Shown: piece after piece, positions 9,983 to 15,223 of the stretch | Position numbering within the stretch: position 1 is the first letter of the stretch | Layout: the number at the start of each line of letters is the position of its first letter | Assembly (NCBI GenBank): GCA_002256005.1 | Contig: NKIQ01000011.1 | Coordinates: 1-64,000, forward strand | DNA: 64,000 nucleotides | Direction of reading: 5' to 3' | Source: Alphaproteobacteria bacterium PA4 | GTDB lineage: Bacteria; Pseudomonadota; Alphaproteobacteria; Sphingomonadales; Sphingomonadaceae | The notes under the pieces: model-generated | Databases searched by the model: none | Told to the model about the DNA's origin: nothing | What the model saw: the letters and a program-made list of their open reading frames with translations, nothing else | Made by a program: the position numbers and the translations under genes

Positions 9983-11185
9983 ATGACCGAAGACTTCTAC
10001 CGCATCAAACGCCTGCCCCCCTATGTCATCGCCGAAGTCAATGCGATGCGGGCGGCGGCGCGCGCCCGCGGCGATGACATCATCGATCTCGGCATGGGCA
10101 ACCCCGATCTGCCGCCGCCGCCGCATGTCATCGACAAGCTGTGCGAAGTGGCAAGGAAGCCCGACGCGCACGGCTATTCAGCGTCAAAGGGGATTCCGGG
10201 CCTGCGCAAGGCCCAGGCCGGCTATTACGGCCGCCGCTTCGGCGTCGATGTCGATCCCGACAGCGAAGTGGTGGTGACGCTGGGTTCCAAGGAAGGCCTC
10301 GCCAACCTTGCGCAGGCGATCACCGCGCCCGGCGATGTCGTGCTGGCGCCCAACCCCAGCTACCCCATCCACACCTTTGGCTTCATCATCGCCGGCGCCA
10401 CCATCCGCAGCGTGCCGACGACGCCGGACGAGCGCTATTTCGAAGCGCTGGAGCGCGCCATGCGCTTCACCGTGCCCAAGCCCTCGGTGCTGGTCATGGG
10501 CTATCCGTCGAACCCCACCGCCGAAACGGTCGACCTGGCGTTCTACGAGCGTGTCGTGGCGTTCGCCAAGAAGCACCAGCTCTGGGTGCTGTCCGACCTT
10601 GCCTATTCGGAACTCTATTATGACGGCAACCCGACGCCTTCGATCCTGCAGGTGCAGGGCGCCAAGGATGTGGCGATCGAGTTCACCTCGCTCTCCAAGA
10701 CCTATTCGATGGCCGGCTGGCGCATCGGCTTCGCGGTGGGCAACAAGACGCTGATCGGCGCGCTGACCCGGGTGAAATCCTATCTCGATTACGGCGCCTT
10801 CACCCCCATCCAGGCGGCGGCAGTGGCGGCGATCAACGGCCCGCAGGATATCGTCGCCGACAATCGCAACCTCTATCACCGCCGCCGCGACGTGCTCGTC
10901 GAAAGCTTCGGCCGCGCCGGCTGGGAGATTCCTTCGCCGCGCGCCAGCATGTTCTGCTGGGCACCGCTGCCGCCGGCGCTGGCCCATCTCGGCAGCCTCG
11001 AATTTTCCAAGCAATTGCTCACCCAGGCCGGCGTCGCCGTGGCCCCGGGCGTCGGTTACGGCGAGGACGGCGAAGGCTTCGTGCGCATCGCCATGGTGGA
11101 GAATGAGCAGCGCCTGCGCCAGGCGGCGCGGAATGTGAAGAAATATCTGACGTCGATGGGGGTGAATACGCCGGGGAAGGGGTGA
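9983..11185 (+). CDS. alaC: Class I/II aminotransferase, alanine/LL-DAP type (AlaC-like)
   Basis: IIDLGMGNPDLPPPPHVIDKL, GYSASKGIPGLRKA, SLSKTYSMAGWRIGFAVGN PLP-Lys motif. Confidence 0.85.
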   Translation: MTEDFYRIKRLPPYVIAEVNAMRAAARARGDDIIDLGMGNPDLPPPPHVIDKLCEVARKPDAHGYSASKGIPGLRKAQAGYYGRRFGVDVDPDSEVVVTLGSKEGLANLAQAITAPGDVVLAPNPSYPIHTFGFIIAGATIRSVPTTPDERYFEALERAMRFTVPKPSVLVMGYPSNPTAETVDLAFYERVVAFAKKHQLWVLSDLAYSELYYDGNPTPSILQVQGAKDVAIEFTSLSKTYSMAGWRIGFAVGNKTLIGALTRVKSYLDYGAFTPIQAAAVAAINGPQDIVADNRNLYHRRRDVLVESFGRAGWEIPSPRASMFCWAPLPPALAHLGSLEFSKQLLTQAGVAVAPGVGYGEDGEGFVRIAMVENEQRLRQAARNVKKYLTSMGVNTPGKG

Positions 11186-11421
11186 GGTAGGGGGGGCCGC
11201 CGGCGGGTAGGACGGTGGTGGTCAGAATCCGAGGTTTGGTGCCCGGGGCGGTGGAGGCGGTTTCCGACTCAGTTCAAGCCGTTCGGCATTCGACGCACGA
11301 ATGATTGCTTAGGGTCAAAGCGGGCTGGCAGGTTTTGAAGATTGGCTGCCCATGGCAGCCGTAGTTACAACCAGAGCGACGGTTGGCGCGCTTAATCGAG
11401 GAATTGTGAACGTCAGACACC

Positions 11422-12072
11422 TTAAAGAAATGCGCGCTGCGGCAGCGGCTCGTCGTCGCTTTGGACTACGGCGCCTTTTTGCTGCCGCGGTAAAATGATT
11501 TTGGGAATTGGCTGTCCAAGCAGGCAAAAGTTGCTGATTTGAAGTGGAGAGACGCTGCGGAGCGCATCCGAGTCCTCACGCAATTTCGTACGGAGGTCCA
11601 TAAGCAATCGCCCAAGAACGTTCTGCCCATTCAACGTTTCATCGTCCTGCGGAGTCGCTCCCCAATAATTGTCTTTACGGGAGTCCTCGACAATGGCGCG
11701 CTCGCCGGTCGACAGGAGCAGTTCCGAAAATTTATGCCAGTTATAAATTAGCTTTACGCGTAAGCACCATTTCATCACCTTGACACGAACGTCATCCCAA
11801 TCGGGCCGGGAATCCGTGCGATAAGGCTTAGATCGCATCTTTGCCGTCATTGGGCTGCCCTCGTTTAGGATCATCCGCTGAACCTCAGGCATGTGCGGAA
11901 AGCGGCAAGCTTGATACAGCGCCTCAGAAGTTCGGATACGGTGTCCAAGCACGACCACCGGAAAGCCTGGAGCCATATTAGATAGCCCGCCAAATTCCTC
12001 GGCTGTCTTCCGGAACCGGACGACATCCTTGGCTTGGTAGGTTCGTAATTGTGTCTCGCTCATGAGCCTCAA
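11422..12072 (-). CDS. NADAR-family protein (YbiA/DUF1768-like; predicted ADP-ribose/NAD-linked N-glycosidase fold)
   Basis: EFGGLSNMAPGFPVVVLGHRIRTSEALYQACRFPHMPEVQRMILNEGSPMTAKMRSKPYRTDSRPDWDDVRVKVMKWCLRVKL ... GERAIVEDSRKDNYWG is characteristic of NADAR. Confidence 0.88.
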   Translation of the reverse strand: MRLMSETQLRTYQAKDVVRFRKTAEEFGGLSNMAPGFPVVVLGHRIRTSEALYQACRFPHMPEVQRMILNEGSPMTAKMRSKPYRTDSRPDWDDVRVKVMKWCLRVKLIYNWHKFSELLLSTGERAIVEDSRKDNYWGATPQDDETLNGQNVLGRLLMDLRTKLREDSDALRSVSPLQISNFCLLGQPIPKIILPRQQKGAVVQSDDEPLPQRAFL

Positions 12073-13076
12073 TTATTCTTGCGTGGGAAGAGAGGATACC
12101 ACGGATCGCCAGCCCAAAACACCAGCGGCGCGTTATTCGGACAATTCCTGTAGGTGACGATCGTGGAACCGAACCCGAGTGATTCGAACATCATTCGACC
12201 CAACGGACGCATGTATTTGTCGAAATGCGGGCACATGTTCCGCACTCGAACGCCAGCGGCGAGAAATTCCTGCTCCAACAAATGACGACCAGCTTCTCCA
12301 GAAAATATGCCGAGCGGGCTTTTACCACCGACTGTTCTAAGCGGTGGTGCTTTTTCAAGACTTGCTACATAGGCTTGTGTCGCATTGTCTGATGGAATAG
12401 CCGTCGGGTACAACACATCGGAATTGTTGATTTCTGACTTACGATTTTCTAATGGCACTGCTCGCCACCACTTTAATTCAATAGACTTGCCGACCGCTGT
12501 TGCCGCTTCCAGAATCATCTTCGTTGAGTACCATTCGCTGTGCAGACCAATCACAAGTACGTCGAGTTTTACATTCGTCGGCGCCGATTCCTTTATCCAT
12601 CTGATGATATCGAACCGCACTCTCCCACCGGAAAAAACGGCATCATCTAAATACAAAAAAGTGTGGGGCGAAATGCCACACAATTCCATCGCGATCCCGC
12701 ATTGTCGCTGGAGCGAGTTTTTCAACAAGGCCAGCATGTCTTTCTGGCTGTGTCCAGCCGTCTGCAAGTTCAGAGCCTTGACGCCCTGCCAAAATTCACG
12801 CGAATTTGCACCTGTGAAGTTTGCGTTGACGACGATGCTGTCAATAAAATTTTGCACTTTGGCCCGCGAGAAATATGTCCGGCGAAATACATGCAACAGT
12901 TCTGTGAGAATAGGATCACGCACAGCAGCCGGGAATTGCGATATCCAACGATCAACATGTGAAGCGTCCGGTGTCGGTATTTCGCCCATACGATAGTCGG
13001 AAATCATGGCCGCTAGTGCGGCGCGCAAATTTGGTGAGCTATCCATACCTACTCCTAAGATTTGCATCTCTCGCAC
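12069..13076 (-). CDS. Phosphoribosyltransferase-like protein (PRTase-CE-like)
   Basis: FLYLDDAVFSGGRVRFDIIRWI resembles a PRPP-binding loop (hhhhDDxxxSG); N-terminal HVDRWISQFPAAVRDPILTELLHVFRRTYFS; ATGA overlap with the NADAR gene. Confidence 0.65.
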   Translation of the reverse strand: MREMQILGVGMDSSPNLRAALAAMISDYRMGEIPTPDASHVDRWISQFPAAVRDPILTELLHVFRRTYFSRAKVQNFIDSIVVNANFTGANSREFWQGVKALNLQTAGHSQKDMLALLKNSLQRQCGIAMELCGISPHTFLYLDDAVFSGGRVRFDIIRWIKESAPTNVKLDVLVIGLHSEWYSTKMILEAATAVGKSIELKWWRAVPLENRKSEINNSDVLYPTAIPSDNATQAYVASLEKAPPLRTVGGKSPLGIFSGEAGRHLLEQEFLAAGVRVRNMCPHFDKYMRPLGRMMFESLGFGSTIVTYRNCPNNAPLVFWAGDPWYPLFPRKNN

Positions 13077-13349
13077 AATCGAAACAGTCTGTCACCAAAG
13101 TGTCGCCGGTTAACTCCTGGCCAGAAACGAAACTGAACGGAAGGCAAGTTTCGAGGAATGCAACGAAGTGTGCGTATGACTGAAGTCTTGTCGGAAGCTG
13201 TCGTTCGCCGTCATTTGAAGTGGCAGGTCAGTCCCAAATTCCGTCAATCGCCGTCCCTCACGACGCGTACCAAGCATCAACTTTGAACCAACAGGCCCCA
13301 GAACCCACTCCTCTGGCTCGCACGTCGCCACATGCGGCCCCGCCAACAC

Positions 13350-13387
13350 CAGGGGTCTGGGGCCAAGGCCCCAGCCGCCGGAGGCCC
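13350..13387. repeat. Family 1 palindromic repeat, solo (half) arm
   Basis: aggggtctggggccaaggccccagccgccggaggcccc; only the right arm is present. Confidence 0.8.
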
Positions 13388-13403
13388 CTTCACACCAACC
13401 ATC

Positions 13404-15092
13404 TCACGCCGAATAGACCGTCCGTCCCCCCGTCACCGTCTCCACGATCCTGATATCCTTGATCCTGTCCTGCGGCACCATCTCCGGATCGTCGGCGAGC
13501 ACCACATAATCGGCGAGCTTGCCGGCGGAGATCGAGCCCTTGATGCTCTCCTCGCGCGAGGCATGCGCGCCGTTCAGCGTGTTGATGCGCAGCGCTTCGG
13601 CGACGCTCACCCGCTGGTTGGCGCCCCAGGTCTGGCCGTTCCAGCCGGTGCGGGTGACCATGCCCTGCATGCCCATCAGCGGCGCGAACGGGCCGGGGTA
13701 GAAGTCGGAACCGGCGCAGACCGGGATGCCGGCGTCCAGAAAACTGCGGAACGCCATGCAATTCTGCATCAGCGCCTCGCCATAGAAGCCGAACTTGTCG
13801 GCGTTGTAATAGGCATAGCTGGTGAAGGGCGCCGGGATGGCGCCGACTGCCTTGATGCGCCGCACCAGATCGGCATTCACCAGCGTGCAATGGGTGATCT
13901 TGAAGCGCGGATCGGCGACCGGGAAGGCCTTTTGCGCCCGCTCGAACGCCGTCAGCACATGATCGATGGCGACATCGCCATTGGCGTGGCAATTCACCTG
14001 GATGCCGGCGCGATGCACCCGCTCCACCCAGGCGTCGAGCACGGGCTGTTCCTCGGTGACATTGCCATAGTATGCCGGGGTGCGGCCGGCATAGGGCGTG
14101 CTGATCGCCATGGTGCGTTCGGAAAAGCTGCCATCGGCGGTGTGTTCGAAGGTGGCGCCAAGCTTGATCCAGTCATCGCCGAAACCGGTCTGGATGCCAT
14201 TGGCGATCATCGCATCGAGCATGGCCCCGCGGGTTTCGAAGCTGACGCGGTGGCAGAGCTCGCCGCGCGCCCTTATCGCCTGCAGCGCCGCCAGATCGCC
14301 GCCCTGGTGGTGGACGCCGGTCAGGCCATAGCGGGCAAAGGCCTTCGACATGTGCGCCGCCGCGTCGCGGGCGCGCTGCACCTGCTGCGCCGGGGTGAAG
14401 CTGGGCCGCGTGCCCACCGTATCGAACACATCCATGGCATTGTCGGTGACCCGGCCGTTGAGTCTGCCATCGGCTGCACGATCGAAGGTGCCGCCCGGCG
14501 GGTTCGGCGTCGCCTGGGTGACGCCGGCGAGCGCGAACGCCCTGGAATTGTAAAAGCCGGTATGGCCGCCGCGATGGTGGACGCAGACCGGATGTTCGGT
14601 CGACACCGCATCCAGATCGGCGATGGTCAGCTGGCGCTTGTCGCTGAGCTTGGTGTCGTCGTGGAAAAAGCCTTCCACCCATTGCCCCGGCGGCAGCGTC
14701 GCCGCCTTGGCGCGCAGCTTGGCGATGATGCTGGCGATGGAAACGAACTCGACCTCGAACGGATTGCCGACCAGCACCTCGTAAAGCAGCATTTCGGCCG
14801 AGGCATGGTTGTGGCAATCGATGAAGCCCGGCACCACCGTCATGCCCCTGGCATCGATGATCCGCGTCCCCTTCCCCGCCAGCGCCCGCGCCCCGGCCTC
14901 GTCACCGACGCGCATGAAGCGGCCGTCCTTCACCGCAAAGGCGGTGGCGCGCGGCCGGGCGGGGTCGACGGTGTGGACGCGGGCGTTGACGACGATGGTA
15001 TCGGCCTCGCCCGCGTCCAGCGCCCAGGCCGGCACCGCCAGCCCGGCAAGGCCGGTGCCGATGAAGCCGCGGCGGTGCATCTGGATGGTCAT
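13404..15092 (-). CDS. Amidohydrolase family protein (YtcJ-like), Tat/Sec-exported
   Basis: MTIQMHRRGFIGTGLAGLAVPAWA signal; VVPGFIDCHNHASAEML; VHHRGGHTGFYNSRAFALAGV; VCAGSDFYPGPFAPLMGM. Confidence 0.9.
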   Translation of the reverse strand: MTIQMHRRGFIGTGLAGLAVPAWALDAGEADTIVVNARVHTVDPARPRATAFAVKDGRFMRVGDEAGARALAGKGTRIIDARGMTVVPGFIDCHNHASAEMLLYEVLVGNPFEVEFVSIASIIAKLRAKAATLPPGQWVEGFFHDDTKLSDKRQLTIADLDAVSTEHPVCVHHRGGHTGFYNSRAFALAGVTQATPNPPGGTFDRAADGRLNGRVTDNAMDVFDTVGTRPSFTPAQQVQRARDAAAHMSKAFARYGLTGVHHQGGDLAALQAIRARGELCHRVSFETRGAMLDAMIANGIQTGFGDDWIKLGATFEHTADGSFSERTMAISTPYAGRTPAYYGNVTEEQPVLDAWVERVHRAGIQVNCHANGDVAIDHVLTAFERAQKAFPVADPRFKITHCTLVNADLVRRIKAVGAIPAPFTSYAYYNADKFGFYGEALMQNCMAFRSFLDAGIPVCAGSDFYPGPFAPLMGMQGMVTRTGWNGQTWGANQRVSVAEALRINTLNGAHASREESIKGSISAGKLADYVVLADDPEMVPQDRIKDIRIVETVTGGRTVYSA

Positions 15093-15223
15093 GGCGAGTC
15101 CCCCTGTTGTGGCGGCATCTTTGCGCCAATCATCGCGCAGGTAAACAGCGCGCGACACCGCTCCGGCCTTGCGCTTTTGCGCTTCGCCCGCAAAGACGGG
15201 ACATCACTGTCTTCGGAGCGTTC

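Follow-up and report, generated by a model that had tools for sequence, protein, structure and literature searches.

The gene pair in the window

The window, as the whole analysed stretch of 64 kb is called here, carries two neighbouring genes on the minus strand, one for a phosphoribosyltransferase-like protein (PRTase) and, downstream of it, one for a NADAR protein. Both are real genes with intact reading frames, and two minus-strand open reading frames had been recorded at these coordinates in an earlier note on this DNA. The following features were defined.

12069..13046, minus strand: PRTase-CE protein (DS32_1), 325 aa, ATG at 13046 after TTAGGAG
11422..12063, minus strand: NADAR protein (DS32_2), YbiA-type, 213 aa, ATG at 12063
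12064..12072, minus strand: gene junction; the PRTase stop codon TGA (12071-12069) shares bases with an alternative NADAR start TTG (12072-12070)
11300..13200, no strand: AT-richer islet, about 47-56% GC per 200 nt, between the aminotransferase and homoserine dehydrogenase genes
13404..15158, minus strand: Amidohydrolase_3 gene, within the same 3.9-kb insertion, host-like in GC content

The Amidohydrolase_3 gene probably lies outside the PRTase–NADAR system. With the preferred starts, ATG 13046 for the PRTase, which is preceded by a good ribosome-binding sequence, and ATG 12063 for NADAR, the two genes are separated by a gap of 5 nt. An ATGA overlap at 12069-12072, from which translational coupling had been deduced in the earlier note, is absent: the coding strand reads TTGA at this position, and an overlap would need the TTG as start of the NADAR gene. 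Gaps of 1-5 nt were also detected in several relatives and overlaps in others. Tight coupling of the genes is likely all the same.

The islet of higher AT content was already apparent from one line of the sequence (12361-12420), which indeed has exactly 50% GC. The pair as a whole has 51.3%, whereas the genes on its two sides have 65.5% and 66.6% and the 64-kb window 66.5%. The lowest-GC 1.6-kb stretch of the window is located at the pair, and all stretches of this size not overlapping it have at least 54% GC. Scans of the surroundings of the pair yielded no promoter match and one terminator-like site, in neither case above the expectation from shuffled sequences, and Rfam gave no match in 11000-13500. 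Repeats flanking the pair were restricted to short imperfect copies, and no convincing target-site duplication was found.

Assignment to DS-32

The PRPP-loop motif reported for the upstream product, FLYLDDAVFSGGRVRFDI, is present, and the protein matches PRTase-CE (PF24390) over model positions 1-253 of 253 with 163 bits (E=1.1e-47), the gathering threshold being 27. For the downstream product, the assignment to NADAR was confirmed (PF08719, 91 bits versus 35.1, E=1e-25). More specific models are available from NCBIfam. The upstream protein scored 375 bits against DS32_1 (NF053875, 'phosphoribosyltransferase-like anti-phage protein'), for which the curated cut-off is 250, and the downstream protein, adjacent and on the same strand, 288 bits against DS32_2 (NF053876, 'NADAR family anti-phage protein') with a cut-off of 240. 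Thus, the suggestion of an anti-phage module made from the sequence alone was well founded, while the novelty implied with it was not, since the pair belongs to an already named system, DS-32.

The DS names of these models match the naming used by DefensePredictor (Science 2026; PMC13092281), where the DS systems were validated in E. coli MG1655 by challenge with phages. The main text of that paper mentions both the NADAR and the PRTase components; within this main text, the label DS-32 is not printed and a mechanism for the pair is not given. The pair of the window is almost certainly a stand-alone copy of DS-32, a kind that has been reported before, and an anti-phage role is predicted for it as very probable.

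Chromosomal setting and probable acquisition

The neighbours of the pair in the window, genes for PhaC, aminotransferase, amidohydrolase, homoserine dehydrogenase, GlpX, and RecJ, are housekeeping genes, and none of them matched a PADLOC defence model at the threshold used. A defence island is therefore not present around the pair. The genes for aminotransferase and homoserine dehydrogenase are parted by an insert of 3.9 kb (window 11185-15107). In four other genomes of the genus (L111, L115-L117) the spacing between them is only about 13-25 bp, and in L109 it is 133 bp. Across the genus, this junction is occupied by differing inserts.

DS32_1 was absent from all 60 other related genomes searched, and none of the 23 further genomes searched from the genus contained the pair. 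Among the best 80 of 168 related GTDB loci described below, the closest relative is 86% identical and comes from a Sphingomonadales genome, where it is found in a different setting. Similarity to this relative at the DNA level is bounded almost exactly by the two genes, which, together with the other setting, fits horizontal acquisition. No relative was detected in viral contigs scanned with the window PRTase, nor in phage records by tblastn. The same type of search in plasmids revealed seven records, each with less than 60% identity and each with a NADAR match as well. On a Bacillus cereus megaplasmid (L008:7013-13892), a helicase gene lies at a distance of about 2 kb from the pair, and the Gabija gene gajA at about 3.5 kb.

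An isolated insertion beside housekeeping genes, not shared by the 23 congeneric genomes searched and without a promoter match, could also indicate a recently acquired pair that is rarely used or decaying and has no defensive role in this host. This explanation is very improbable. The reading frames are intact, the scores are far above the curated cut-offs and all conserved residues are kept; moreover, consensus promoter scans overlook many true promoters.

Pairing in relatives

A GTDB-wide scan revealed 168 related loci, the best 80 of which were kept for analysis. Together with six loci from plasmids and other genomes, 86 loci were compared. In all of them, NADAR is encoded directly or nearly directly downstream of the PRTase; in L058 a second PRTase intervenes, and the contigs of L035 and L083 end within the NADAR gene. 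Since all of the best 80 of 168 GTDB relatives keep the order PRTase then NADAR, the pairing goes beyond chance. When 399 genomes of the phylum were searched, three passed the DS32_1 cut-off, and exactly the same three passed that of DS32_2. Pairwise identities of PRTases and NADARs covary (r=0.705, reached in 0 of 500 permutations).

Two arrangements deviate from the simple pair. In L058 (7956-11724), the two tandem PRTase genes are followed by a NADAR fused to DUF4365. In Vibrio (L010:4120-5615), a NADAR resembling DS32_2 (197 bits, below the cut-off) is encoded adjacent to a Dam methylase gene and without a PRTase.

Conserved residues and predicted structures

Short conserved sequences were found in both proteins. 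The PRTases share the PRPP loop, Y132-x-D134-D135-x3-[ST]139-G140, and a C-terminal motif, GFG...TYRNCPNNxPLxxW. D134, D135, and G140 are identical in 100% of 87 sequences, as are E47, R54, and E126 among 87 NADAR sequences, in which W134 is also invariant and D131 nearly so. Mapped by sequence motif, E47, R54, and E126 correspond to E43, K50, and E125 of the NADAR solved with ADP-ribose. In a related NADAR, exchange of this lysine to arginine kept the activity in vitro and lost the antitoxin function (PMC11543638). As far as sequences can tell, conservation of the NADAR and PRPP-loop residues would agree with a reading in which the PRTase writes a modification that NADAR erases.

Structures were predicted by AlphaFold2 with a mean pLDDT of 93.0 for the PRTase and 91.6 for NADAR. 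In Foldseek searches, the NADAR model matched YbiA (E=5.4e-9), the closest solved NADAR, and the NADAR-ADPr structure 8bau (E=2.6e-7). The structural match and the Glu at the E125 position place the protein in the YbiA subfamily. The PRTase model gave nothing in the PDB at E<=0.001, and a PDB sequence search with the PRTase profile returned chance matches only. Its best matches with a PRTase fold are to PyrR (probability 0.63-0.95, E 0.03-0.15), with a weak TM-score to the target of 0.43-0.53; judged from the model, PyrR appears the most plausible among these weak matches. A strong match was obtained to the model of a viral PRTase-CE.

The PRTase might also act by nucleotide depletion, draining PRPP or free bases or converting nucleotides, with NADAR serving as a sensor or binding antitoxin and not as an eraser. 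Such a pair would resemble those of the ShosTA type, in which a PRTase is combined with a DprA-like antitoxin. Both in retrons and in a validated DprA-PRTase pair (PMC9122126), the PRTase is the probable effector, and the C-terminal part of the window PRTase matches PRTase_III-A retron effectors of PADLOC (E=1.3e-10). However, a pure binder would not need the catalytic residues that are invariant in NADAR, and the structural match to ShosT is weak (rank 50, probability 0.25). Overall, depletion appears rather unlikely.

Relatives embedded in restriction-modification operons

In 42 of the 80 GTDB loci (between L020 and L088), the pair is contained in a Type I restriction-modification (R-M) operon with the order hsdM–PRTase–NADAR–hsdR; in three of the 42, hsdR was not seen. 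A GmrSD-like gene is often located between hsdM and the PRTase gene. A gene of 598 aa with a GmrSD_N domain (DUF262) lies inside many of the R-M-embedded operons (L020:6163 and others, a cluster of 18 loci).

All 41 complete NADARs from these operons are extended at the C-terminus by 447-518 residues. A profile built from three extensions that PADLOC calls Type I specificity subunits identified the tails as HsdS-like in 41 of 41 cases (E<=1.2e-63), and a second HsdS-like open reading frame was not found in any of the 41 loci. Four further loci, L038, L043, L044, and L075, contain NADARs with tails of about 980-1,080 residues and a helicase beside them. Three of these tails were scanned with PADLOC or NCBIfam; all three matched DUF1156 methylase models and two matched HmaB. 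A DUF499-type gene is present in three of the four loci. Among stand-alone pairs, long NADAR tails were detected in two only, one of them being DUF4365.

On a PRTase tree from a quick search, with branch support from SH-aLRT only, the R-M label needs seven changes, at least five of which are forced by starred branches. R-M embedding was therefore gained or lost repeatedly. Identities of HsdM and HsdR are closely correlated (r=0.965), while those of PRTase and HsdM are less so (r=0.487). Because the PRTase tracks NADAR more than HsdM, these values suggest that the module moved between R-M backbones. The NPP[FYW] motif of HsdM is kept in 38 of 38 proteins and the DExH motif of HsdR in 35 of 35, and consequently, normal methylation and cutting appear intact in the R-M-embedded forms.

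Fusion of NADAR to HsdS or a DNA methylase in 45 loci could indicate an add-on for DNA modification. In this reading, HsdS or the methylase would select the sites, and the pair would introduce, exchange, or remove a base modification there, so that self DNA is labelled or phage DNA loses its protection and can be cut by HsdR. Guanine adducts in DNA are substrates of NADARs (PMC11543638), and the related Vibrio NADAR adjoins a Dam methylase gene. On the other hand, ordinary methylation and cutting seem intact according to the motifs, and the stand-alone pair is without a DNA-reading partner. An add-on of this kind is improbable.

No paper joining NADAR, restriction-modification, and a specificity subunit was found in the open literature, outside of which most subscription journals lie. 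R-M-embedded forms with NADAR fusions are not described in the main text of the DefensePredictor paper. While the pair itself is known, its R-M link with a NADAR–HsdS fusion is new relative to the literature found.

Proposed mechanism

The best explanation overall, inferred in part and with about even chances of being correct, is a stand-alone DS-32 in which a latent PRTase effector would be kept harmless by NADAR. That the PRTase is the effector and NADAR its restraint is slightly favoured over other divisions of labour. NADAR may cleave a ribosyl-base bond made by the PRTase, may restrain the PRTase itself, or both. Once a phage interferes with the guarded complex or its target, the PRTase would become active and stop the phage from growing, with the cell itself probably being sacrificed; PrrC behaves in this way upon inhibition of the Type I enzyme EcoprrI.

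The most likely chemistry would be the transfer of 5-phosphoribose from PRPP to a base amino group in a nucleotide or nucleic acid. An N-ribosyl bond of the type cleaved by NADAR/YbiA enzymes would result. Riboflavin intermediates, whose N-glycosidic bond is cleaved by YbiA, are ribosyl-5'-phosphates. Writing and erasing of N-phosphoribosyl groups is a possibility put forward tentatively. Somewhat more doubtful is the extended version, in which a writer and an eraser of N-linked phosphoribosyl on a base would form a PRPP-driven counterpart of DarT-NADAR that is, in many bacteria, wired into Type I enzymes through NADAR::HsdS, inhibition of restriction by the phage releasing the writer.

The precedent for the guard reading of the R-M-embedded forms is PrrC, a nuclease held in a Type I enzyme and freed upon phage infection (PMC3874165). 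As the stand-alone form has no R-M partner, a trigger like that of PrrC would there depend on a different sensor. YbiA and phage NADARs did not rescue DarT1 toxicity in vivo (PMC11125620), and therefore, NADAR activity alone does not make an antitoxin. The repeated fusions of NADAR to HsdS and to a methylase are a direct clue that its activity, whatever it is, benefits restriction systems at the subunit that reads the DNA. Should the PRTase and NADAR prove to be writer and eraser, phosphoribosylation would join the known reversible base modifications in immunity, and Type I enzymes would be shown to contain a second guard of the PrrC kind.

Comparison with known systems

With DarT1-NADAR, the window pair has in common the NADAR fold, an active-site Glu, and a putative base-modifying toxin as partner. 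The partner in the window is a PRTase-CE and not an ADP-ribosyltransferase, and the flanking genes code for an aminotransferase and an amidohydrolase. While DarT1-linked NADARs are of the Asp type, that of the window is of the YbiA (Glu) type, and the essential Lys of the BC4488 type (Asp and Lys) is replaced by Arg. The lack of a DarT-like enzyme beside the pair had been recognized correctly in the earlier note. Membership in the DarT–NADAR systems was rejected, there being no adjacent DarT-type ADP-ribosyltransferase and Glu and Arg instead of Asp and Lys.

As in Type III-A retrons and ShosTA-like systems, the window PRTase is a candidate effector of the PRTase family, and its C-terminal motif is common to PRTase_III-A models. 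Unlike ShosTA and DprA-PRTase pairs, its partner is without DprA/SLOG; Pfam finds NADAR only. Assignment to Type III-A retrons was discarded, since no retron RNA was found (no Rfam match in 11000-13500) and the neighbours are the aminotransferase and amidohydrolase genes instead of a reverse transcriptase.

Hma (helicase-methylase-ATPase) is approached by the four relatives with a helicase and a NADAR fused, where scanned, to a DUF1156/HmaB-type methylase, three of them with DUF499; the likeness is confined to these relatives and absent from the window. Similarly, the arrangement of EcoprrI-PrrC, with the effector encoded within a Type I R-M operon, is seen only in the R-M-embedded relatives (42 of 80). 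These have a PRTase and a NADAR joined to HsdS instead of an anticodon nuclease, and R-M genes are absent beside the window copy.

The closest correspondence is to DS-32 itself. An E. coli pair passing both models (L120:4941-6574) belongs to a lambdoid prophage, where it is flanked by the O/P replication genes on one side and genes of the nin region on the other; a NADAR match of this type was detected in 62 of 5,426 E. coli genomes, the setting being taken from one of these loci. In contrast, the window copy is chromosomal in a Sphingomonadales-like genome with no prophage genes nearby, but the two families, the gene order, and the close spacing are the same.
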